This document shows positions 24,855-27,054 of a DNA stretch of 64,000 bases, piece by piece. The notes under the pieces were generated by a model, which worked only from the letters and a program-made list of their open reading frames with translations, searched no databases and had not been told where the DNA came from. Positions within the stretch are counted from its first letter, which is position 1; every line of letters starts with the position of its first letter. A program made the translations under genes and the position numbers. The stretch is from Billgrantia ethanolica (lineage in GTDB: Bacteria > Pseudomonadota > Gammaproteobacteria > Pseudomonadales > Halomonadaceae): assembly GCF_021404305.1 (NCBI RefSeq), contig NZ_JABFTX010000004.1:558001-622000 (forward strand), given 5' to 3'.

Positions 24855-25757
24855 ATGGCTGAAGTCTCGTCGGCAACGCTGGATCTCGAGCTGCTGCGCA
24901 GTTTTCAGGCTGCGGCCCAGCTCGGTTCGCTGGCGGCGGCGGCCGAGCAGCGGCACCGCACTGTCAGCGCCATCAGCATGCAGATCAAGCGCCTGGAGGC
25001 GTTGCTCGACGTCCGCCTGCTGGAGCGTGGCCCGCGTGGCGTGGTGCCCACTACCGCCGGGGCGGCACTGCTGCAGGAGGCGCGGGAGCTGCTGCGCATG
25101 CACGACGGAATCCTGGCCCGCTATGCCGGGCGCGGGCTGCGGGGCAAGGTGCGCTTCGGCCTGCCCGAGGATTATGCCCGCGAGCTGCTCGGCGACGTGC
25201 TGCCCGAGTTCACCTCGCACCACCCCGAGGTGCTGCTGCAGGCGGTGACGGCCACCAGCGGCGAGCTGGTGCGGCAACTGGAGCGCTCGCGGCTGGACTT
25301 GGCAGTGGTACTGGACCGGCCCATCGCACTGCCCGGCGGCGAGCCGCTGTGGCGCACCACCCCGGTATGGGCCGCGCCGCGTGCCGCCAACCTGACCGAG
25401 CGGGACAGCCTGCCACTGGCCCTGCATGAGGTCGACTGCCCCTACCGGGCGCTGGCCACCGAAGCCTTGGAGCGGCTCGGCAGGCCCTGGCACGCGCTGT
25501 TCACCAGCACCAGCATCCACACCATCGAGCGCGCGGTGGAGACGGGGCTGGCGATCAGCGTGCTCGACCGCGAACGCCTGACCCCTGCCATGCGCGAGCT
25601 GGGCGAGGCCGAAGGCCTGCCCGCTCTCGGCCGCTGCGAAGCGCAGCTGCATTTCGCCCGCGCCATTGCACCCGCCTCGCAGCCTGCTGCCCAGGCCCTG
25701 GCCGAGCTGCTGCGCGAGCGTCTGCGAGGACGCGGCCCCTGGCGCGGAGCCGGATGA
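24855..25757 (+). CDS. LysR-family transcriptional regulator
   Basis: 300 residues. The HTH is at the N-terminus (LDLELLRSFQAAAQLGSLAA, QRHRTVSAISMQIKRLE), followed by the effector domain. It is transcribed divergently from the EamA exporter gene with an 88-bp gap, the classic arrangement for a regulator and its target. The effector is unknown. The 3' end is followed by the small-RNA locus on the opposite strand. Confidence 0.85.
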   Translation: MAEVSSATLDLELLRSFQAAAQLGSLAAAAEQRHRTVSAISMQIKRLEALLDVRLLERGPRGVVPTTAGAALLQEARELLRMHDGILARYAGRGLRGKVRFGLPEDYARELLGDVLPEFTSHHPEVLLQAVTATSGELVRQLERSRLDLAVVLDRPIALPGGEPLWRTTPVWAAPRAANLTERDSLPLALHEVDCPYRALATEALERLGRPWHALFTSTSIHTIERAVETGLAISVLDRERLTPAMRELGEAEGLPALGRCEAQLHFARAIAPASQPAAQALAELLRERLRGRGPWRGAG

Positions 25758-25770
25758 GTCGGGAGTGGGC

Positions 25771-25815
25771 ACAGGCAAGACCCTGACCCGGTGAAGAGCA
25801 GCAATGAGGGGGGTG
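25771..25815 (-). repeat. Second copy of the small-RNA core
   Basis: On the minus strand this stretch repeats the core of the neighbouring RNA: CCCCCTCATTGCT followed further on by GGTCTTGCCTG. It begins about 11 bp beyond the terminator of the first copy. I see no promoter or T-run terminator of its own, so it would be transcribed only by read-through. The equivalent block in the first copy is 25851-25883. Confidence 0.6.
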
Positions 25816-25825
25816 TTTTCTGAAC

Positions 25826-25942
25826 AAAAAAGGCGCCTCCAGAGGAGGCGCAGGCAAGACCGTGACTAGCAATGAGGGGGAGAAACCATAGCGGGAAACT
25901 GGCGGTTCCCCTAATGGCCGTGGTGCCTCATCAACACCACGT
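25826..25942 (-). ncRNA. Candidate Fur-controlled small RNA (RyhB/PrrF-like)
   Basis: About 115 nt predicted on the minus strand. 5' hairpin CGTGGTG-N9-CACCACG (25941 to 25919); second hairpin GGGGAAC-cgcca-GTTTCCC (25911 to 25893); an unpaired stretch with a C-rich CCCCCTCATTGCTAG core (about 25869-25883); then the terminator GCGCCTCC-tct-GGAGGCGC-C-TTTTTT (25851 to 25826). The promoter upstream carries a Fur-like box. Size, promoter type, C-rich seed and tandem second core resemble iron-sparing RNAs such as RyhB (which, from memory, shares CATTGCT) and the duplicated PrrF1/PrrF2 of Pseudomonas. There is no credible frame inside. Function is inference. Confidence 0.65.
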
Positions 25943-25947
25943 CCTCA

Positions 25948-25976
25948 ATGTAAGTCATTCTCATTCTCTCTGTCAA
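25948..25976 (-). promoter_or_regulatory. Promoter with Fur-like box for the small RNA
   Basis: Minus strand: -35 TTGACA (25976 to 25971), a 17- or 18-bp spacer, -10 TTACAT or the one-base-shifted TACATT. The spacer and -10 hold GAGAATGAGAATGACTTAC (25968 to 25950), which matches the 19-bp Fur consensus at 13 positions. A repressor bound there would block RNA polymerase, giving transcription only under iron limitation. Confidence 0.6.
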
Positions 25977-25999
25977 CACGAATGCGAACGTTTTTTATT

Positions 26000-26917
26000 T
26001 CAGCTTCCGGCCAGGTGCAGCCACAGGGGCAGCGTCGCCATGGCGAGCAGCGTCTGACCGGTGATCAGGGCGGCCATCAGCTCGGCGTCGCCGCCCAGCT
26101 GGCGAGCCAGGATATAGGCCGAGGTGGCGGTGGGCAGGGCGGCGAACAGCAGCGCCACGTCACGGCTCACGGCGTCCAGCCCCAGCAGCAGCGCCAGGCC
26201 GAACACCAGCGCCGGCATCAGCATCAGCTTGACCAGATTCGAGACCCACACACCGCGATCGAGGCGCAGTAGCGCCTGGGGGCGCAGGGCGACGCCCACC
26301 GCCACCAGCCCCAGCGGCAGGGCGGCACGACCCAGCAGCTCCACGGCCGAGCCGCTCCAGCCGGGCAGGCCGATACCGGTGAGATTGAGGGCGATGCCAG
26401 TCAGGCAGGCCAGGATCAGCGGGTTGCGCACCAGGGCCGCCAGGCTCTTGGCCAGGCTCGAGGGGCCCAGGGTGCCGGCGGCGATGAAGCTGGCCACGCA
26501 CAGCACGTTGACCACCGGCACCATCAGCGCCACGGCCACCGCGGCCACCGTGGCGCCGGCCGAGCCATGCAGGGCGGCGGCCCCGGCGACCCCCACGTAG
26601 GTATTGAAGCGCAGCGCACCCTGGAAGACCGAAGTGAAGGCCGCCGGCTCCAGGCCCAGCCGCCGCTGCGCGGCCCACAGCAGCCCGGCGAAGGCCAGCA
26701 TGCCGCCGAGTAGGGCGATGGCCAGGCGCACCACCGGTACCTCGCCCACGTTGGCGTTGGCCAGCGTGGCGACCAGCATGGCGGGAAAGAGCAGGAAATA
26801 GATGACCTTCTCGAGCTGTACCCAGAAATCGTCGCTCGGCTGGCGCAAGCGTCCCAGCGCGGCGCCGAGCAGTATCAGCAGGAACAGGGGGCCCAGCGCA
26901 TTGGTGACGCCATCCAT
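26000..26917 (-). CDS. AEC-family (auxin efflux carrier-like) transporter
   Basis: 305 residues, about ten hydrophobic helices in the inverted-repeat AEC fold. N-terminal LFLLILLGAALGRLRQP and C-terminal FAALPTATSAYILARQLGGD are typical. Bacterial members export malate, malonate or other organic acids; the substrate is not known here. Its coding end is about 24 bp from the -35 box of the small-RNA promoter. Confidence 0.85.
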   Translation of the reverse strand: MDGVTNALGPLFLLILLGAALGRLRQPSDDFWVQLEKVIYFLLFPAMLVATLANANVGEVPVVRLAIALLGGMLAFAGLLWAAQRRLGLEPAAFTSVFQGALRFNTYVGVAGAAALHGSAGATVAAVAVALMVPVVNVLCVASFIAAGTLGPSSLAKSLAALVRNPLILACLTGIALNLTGIGLPGWSGSAVELLGRAALPLGLVAVGVALRPQALLRLDRGVWVSNLVKLMLMPALVFGLALLLGLDAVSRDVALLFAALPTATSAYILARQLGGDAELMAALITGQTLLAMATLPLWLHLAGS

Positions 26918-27054
26918 CTCGATGTCCTTGTCGTCTCGGGATTTGAGGTGCCGGAACCGTTAAACCCTGCGACAACGGTACACGCCAGGGCGACCGGCAA
27001 ATGCTGTTAAGCTTACCTTCTACCGCCGTTTCGTGAAGTGCTGCTTTCGCTGCC

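Follow-up and report, generated by a model that had tools for sequence, protein, structure and literature searches.

The locus

The window (the whole stretch of DNA that was analysed, 64,000 nucleotides from Billgrantia ethanolica) contains a segment flanked by a LysR-type regulator gene and a transporter gene, in which the following features were mapped:

24855-25757, plus strand: LysR-type regulator gene, one flank of the small RNA
25775..25815, minus strand: degenerate second unit, 'core B', past the small RNA terminator and lacking its own recognisable terminator; conserved in relatives
25826..25942 (approximate ends), minus strand: candidate PrrF-like small RNA of about 117 nt (promoter and terminator scan, sub-threshold RF00444 match, model R2 match)
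25826..25851, minus strand: intrinsic terminator (terminator scan)
25858..25885, minus strand: conserved core TTTCTCCCCCTCATTGCTAGTCACGGTC, rich in C and predicted to pair with mRNA (conservation, complementarity to sdhC and sodB)
25886..25917 (approximate extent), minus strand: hairpin 2 (covariation: 7 of 9 pairs changed on both sides, 81.6% of cells paired)
25919..25941, minus strand: hairpin 1 (covariation: 6 of 7 pairs changed on both sides, 95.2% of cells paired)
25947..25952, minus strand: -10 element TACATT (promoter scan)
25950..25968, minus strand: Fur-like box GAGAATGAGAATGACTTAC in the promoter spacer (13/19 match; homologous site kept in relatives)
25971..25976, minus strand: -35 element TTGACA (promoter scan)
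25981..25992, plus strand: second, inverted Fur-like half site AATGCGAACGTT upstream of the -35 element, kept in relatives
26000-26917, minus strand: Mem_trans-family transporter gene, the other flank

The original prediction had placed a TTGACA/TACATT-type promoter and an intrinsic terminator on the minus strand, and both were borne out. The promoter, running from 25976 to 25947, is of the sigma-70 type with a spacer of 18 nt, agrees with the consensus at 10 of 12 positions and is the sole promoter-like site within 25000-27000 (shuffle mean 0.1). The terminator consists of a G+C stem at 25851-25833 followed by a T-run; two terminator-like sites were detected compared to 0.7 in shuffles.

Conservation in the halomonad family

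A BLAST search with the 206-nt unit gave matches in 35 of 58 genomes, namely in 35 of the 37 genomes of the same genus (own genome included) and in none of the 21 from other genera. The core played no part in the selection of the 30 loci fetched from this search; its pattern was found in 29 of them, and L019 carries the core with one change. Scanning named genomes for the exact core returned at least 118 stretches, in which the core is invariant by construction, and the 80 titles listed all belong to Halomonas, Vreelandella, Billgrantia or Halovibrio. Among 130 copies less than 92% alike, conservation peaks at the Fur box, the -35 element, the hairpin-1 loop, the core and the terminator.

For a search across the family we used model R2, which was built from halomonad sequences without any PrrF. 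It matched 236 of 250 family genomes in 22 of 24 genera and placed its match to the window's own small RNA at G000:C40:583819-583947. In the class sample four of 369 genomes matched, all from the window's own order and including the window's genome. The hairpins and core on which the original prediction relied are therefore conserved in related genomes. Thirteen of the 14 match-free family genomes belong to the genera g113, g114 and g125.

Fold of the predicted RNA

Two hairpins had been proposed and covariation bears out both. In alignment A2, which comprises 27 of 47 sequences picked as alignable and free of long inserts, 18 of 22 pairs show changes on both sides, a number reached in none of 500 shuffles; since the 27 were picked for alignability, this count rests on that selection and on a hand-written structure, and the shuffles ignore the relatedness of the sequences. 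Double-changed cells numbered 63 versus 19.4 in shuffles, and 86.1% of cells were paired versus 37-50% when the structure was slid along the alignment. An alignment of all 47 sequences (A1) yielded a meaningless RNAalifold structure because of inserts of variable length, and model R1, built on it, was discarded.

The core had also been described as unpaired, which holds only in part. The 112-nt window RNA folds with a z-score of -2.64 (5 of 200 shuffles equally good), and its minimum-energy fold pairs the core with the 5' arm. At least five such core/5'-arm pairs were predicted in 35 of 47 relatives, and four in the 128-nt window sequence; ATGAG occurs upstream of the core in 41 of the 47, and the median cost of freeing the core among them is 4.1 kcal/mol. 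The predicted folds suggest that part of the time the core is probably paired and give a hint of seed masking by the 5' arm. As covariation favours the local hairpin 1 whereas the predicted folds favour masking, both folds may exist. The conserved hairpin-1 loop TTGATGAG (25926-25934, minus strand) is complementary to CTCATT in the core, a possible seed-masking switch. The layout of PrrF in the wider sense, with two hairpins, a single-stranded core, a terminator and a length of about 115 nt, is found here, the accessibility of the core being doubtful.

Predicted control by Fur

The proposed Fur box was confirmed as a 13/19 match at 25950-25968, but the count itself carries no significance. Scored against a 19-mer consensus, five places in the 64-kb window reach 13/19, compared to 0.63 per 64 kb and strand in a Markov control, and we rejected the match count alone as evidence because 13/19 is not above chance by this control. 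The box is credible because it is conserved in relatives. Upstream of the core a 12-position Fur motif, derived from the small RNA family itself, was found at 10/12 or better in 30 of 32 distinct BLAST-found sequences (0.1 in shuffles) and in 126 of 135 pattern-scan loci (1.7 in shuffles). With the canonical 7-1-7 box, at least 10/14 positions matched in 71 of 146 upstream regions versus 11.2 when shuffled, and at least 11/14 in 33 versus 1.6; this excess is clear and smaller than with the family motif. The inverted half site reached at least 10/12 in 68 of 124 distinct promoters, chosen beforehand for a Fur-like spacer, versus 1.3 in shuffles.

A Fur box in the promoter, as expected of PrrF in the wider sense, is hence present as a sequence feature. 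The contig of the window also carries a strong FUR-family gene, about 11 kb past the window end, and a weaker one was located on another contig; an hfq gene was found in the genome as well.

Relationship to PrrF

The original prediction had assigned the RNA to the RyhB/PrrF kind. RyhB of enterobacteria is a Fur-repressed, iron-sparing RNA, and the same general role is likely for the halomonad RNA, but membership in RyhB itself was rejected: none of the three Rfam matches at E<=10 was to a RyhB model. The PrrF part of the assignment stood. The whole length of the Rfam PrrF model RF00444 aligns to 25825-25976, a segment which takes in the promoter and the Fur box, with 36.7 bits and an E-value of 8.4e-5 in 361 bases. 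This score lies well under the gathering cut-off of 90 bits, so the sequence does not belong to RF00444 as curated, and for the single window sequence it is marginal at genome scale; a strict-filter scan of the order missed the own genome.

When 20 related loci were searched, 17 matched RF00444 at the position of the small RNA with E<=1 (best 52.6 bits), and three of the 20 reached E<=0.001 in a 63-kb search, a low number which we counted against a PrrF reading. Five genomes of the sister genera g23, g25, g26 and g27 scored 51-65 bits. Across the order, RF00444 matched 40 of 244 genomes in 22 of 112 genera, nine genomes scoring above the cut-off; in the class sample it matched two of 369 genomes, both from the own order. 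In the reverse direction R2 detected PrrF in 10 of 10 reference loci at E<=1.1e-5 (rough calibration), so that full-length profile similarity holds both ways, as required of PrrF in the wider sense. Since RF00444 matches end to end and R2 finds PrrF reciprocally, the halomonad RNA is, by profile comparison, a diverged PrrF homologue.

PrrF1 and PrrF2 of Pseudomonas (RF00444) have the Fur box in the same place of the promoter, two hairpins and a terminator, and their core likewise ends in CTARTCACGG. Their length is similar, with 116 and 114 nt given for P. aeruginosa in the accessible part of one paper (PMC2851614), which also describes PrrF as Fur-repressed and iron-sparing. They differ in the core, which is CTCATCAGGCTAATCACGG in most PrrF reference loci and CTCATTGCTAGTCACGG in halomonads, in the halomonad hairpin-1 loop and in the sub-cut-off score. 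An intermediate core, CTCATCAAGCTAGTCACGG, was found in one sister genus.

A Fur-regulated small RNA of independent origin could have converged on the layout and targets of PrrF, and the sub-cut-off score and the marginal E-values of most single relatives would fit such an origin. Convergence does not readily explain an alignment that extends through promoter and Fur box, the reciprocal R2 match, or scores graded through the sister genera with an intermediate core in one of them, and we regard it as improbable. Homology to PrrF is the reading followed below.

Predicted mRNA targets

We searched six genomes for the core complement CCGTGACTAGCAA with at most one mismatch. The start of sdhC was matched in all six, with the GTG start codon within the match, and the sodB leader in one. 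Apart from these and the small RNA copies five matches were left, four inside open frames on the same strand and one outside. The total of 19 matches shows no excess over the 48 obtained with the reversed pattern, so that it is not the number of sites that matters but which sites match. A 16-nt core-complement pattern with three mismatches likewise gave no excess in the own genome (20 matches versus 19 for the reversed control).

In the own genome sdhC is complementary to the core at 12/13 positions and sodB at 11/13, compared to 10/13 at most in 369 other start regions, which come from rough gene calling on a genome sample. Of 2000 shuffled motifs, two equalled the core at sodB, and at sdhC there was none that did. 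Furthermore, none of the first six sdhC codons varies among the 23 same-genus genomes compared, and of 38 other codons for invariant amino acids within the first 60 three are equally constant; causes other than pairing with the small RNA may have frozen the sdhC start. Duplex energy over the 369 start regions did not make either gene stand out (sodB rank 73, sdhC rank 136) and was dropped as a target test, because a C-rich core binds many G-rich leaders and energy does not discriminate. Among 14 same-genus iron-SOD leaders (no start was located in 5 of 31 SOD loci), five reach 10/13, three more pair by eye with a small gap and six show no pairing.

Genes affected by PrrF include sdh and sodB according to the accessible parts of two reports (PMC2851614, PMC13104616). 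Complementarity to both mRNAs, a further property of PrrF in the wider sense, is found here, together with a negative energy test and a sodB site that is not in all relatives. The proposed targeting is thus upheld by base complementarity for sdhC and, in this species, for sodB; duplex energy does not favour it, and 6 of 14 relatives lack the pairing at sodB.

These results also bear on the possibility that the window copy is a real small RNA by descent that has lost its iron control or acts on mRNAs other than sdhC and sodB. The weak Fur match of this copy, the failure of the energy test to favour the two genes and the incomplete distribution of sodB pairing point in this direction, but promoter and spacer site are conserved, all six genomes carry the sdhC complement and the first sdhC codons are frozen, which makes such a change of function very improbable.

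Proposed mode of action

Since the transporter gene on the minus strand, which ends at 26000, lies directly before the segment, the latter might instead be a cis element, serving as leader or 3' region of an adjacent gene and not as a separate RNA. It has its own promoter and terminator, the next minus-strand gene follows only past the opposing LysR gene, and the neighbours differ in some relatives (for example, those in which a methyltransferase-like frame, read by eye, follows the small RNA), which leaves a cis element with hardly any likelihood. A short protein can be dismissed almost entirely: a 105-codon minus-strand frame (25555-25872) overlaps part of the small RNA, but hairpin 2 shows compensatory changes together with indels of differing lengths, as suits an RNA structure and not a reading frame.

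We consider it highly likely that the segment encodes a PrrF homologue, a small RNA that acts in trans to spare iron. Homology to PrrF, covariation of the hairpins and conservation of promoter, box and sdhC complementarity were observed in the sequences, and transcription, Fur binding, Hfq dependence and the direction of regulation are deduced. When iron is plentiful, Fur-Fe(II) bound at 25950-25968 would block the promoter, probably aided by the upstream inverted half site. When iron is short, RNA polymerase would transcribe the RNA of about 117 nt, ending at the terminator at 25826. Messenger RNAs of iron-using proteins would then be bound by the C-rich core, probably together with Hfq, at their ribosome-binding or start region, which would lower their translation and stability; the most likely targets are sdhC and, in this species, sodB. 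The candidate segment 25826-25942 is very probably the gene for a small RNA by which iron-using proteins would be lowered under iron shortage. Conservation and homology to PrrF support the original prediction of a halomonad equivalent in its main point, with corrections to the Fur count and the pairing of the core.

Tandem copies and arrays

Two or more R2 matches were present in 67 of 250 family genomes, with up to five per genome; not all are tandem (they lie far apart in G072). We distinguished three layouts. In the first, found in L098, L323 and L324, whole copies each have a Fur-like promoter. In the second, one Fur-type promoter is followed by promoterless repeats of hairpin 2, core and terminator: five in L319 (G431) with a period of about 135 nt, four each in L320 (G402) and L321 (G468) and three in L322 (G471). 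Repeat periods in these four arrays are about 135 or 183 nt, and the last copies have changed cores in L319, L321 and L322.

The third layout contains a changed 'core B' (CTCATTGCTGCTYTTTAC...CAGGGTCTTGCC), of which 14 of 147 loci carry between one and five units; this number of loci came from a loosened pattern after the first had matched none, and it includes some sequences fetched twice as well as three loci (L006, L071, L074) in which only the first part is present. Core-B units of relatives often have their own terminator, and no promoter was seen. In ten loci, where the search pattern fixed ten core-B positions, core B is conserved and the spacer before it is not. Searching four genomes for core-B targets returned the modules themselves and one site with three mismatches each in G029 and G031. 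Downstream of the core in L128, two spacers alternate between five core-B units, the whole forming a higher-order repeat.

Tandem PrrF also occurs beyond halomonads: nine of the 40 RF00444-matching genomes of the order have two or three matches within about 500 bases. A second, distant tandem pair of PrrF-like RNAs was observed in the sister-genus genome G072 (L325, 864-968 and 1044-1164), with a strongly changed core that reads CTCCTCATCATCAGGTCC in the second RNA.

According to the accessible part of a 2010 paper, the tandem prrF layout is restricted to P. aeruginosa among pseudomonads and gives rise to PrrH, a longer RNA from the tandem locus (PMC2851614). Halomonad arrays could yield a comparable read-through product, although their later units lack a promoter or carry the changed core B, and a long halomonad RNA is hypothetical. 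A precedent for promoterless tandem units is provided by CcsR1-4 of Rhodobacter sphaeroides, four homologous small RNAs from one precursor, which differ in that they share a transcript with a protein gene and are processed with RNase E, with no Fur link stated in the accessible text (PMC8307010).

Tentatively, halomonads may repeatedly have turned the PrrF gene into an array with one Fur-controlled promoter and up to five further promoterless modules of core and terminator. Partial read-through of the terminators would set the number of cores per RNA and give a graded, multivalent response to iron, with a possible second target specificity through core B; the window would represent the decayed end of such an array.

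Meaning for the family and the order

Our literature search covered few papers, mostly without subscription journals, and within this scope we found no description of a native halomonad PrrF; in the accessible Halomonas literature PrrF appeared only as an imported Pseudomonas tool. The profile matches indicate that PrrF is a property of the entire order and that most copies escape notice because of the Rfam cut-off, as just nine of the 40 matching genomes score above it. By the same kind of comparison, a PrrF-like RNA occurs in most of the halomonad family, sometimes in tandem, and the clade is unusually prone to arrays. Tandem copies and promoterless arrays represent natural experiments on the multiplication of a small RNA gene, and the RNA is a likely iron-sparing regulator of a family that is used as an industrial chassis.
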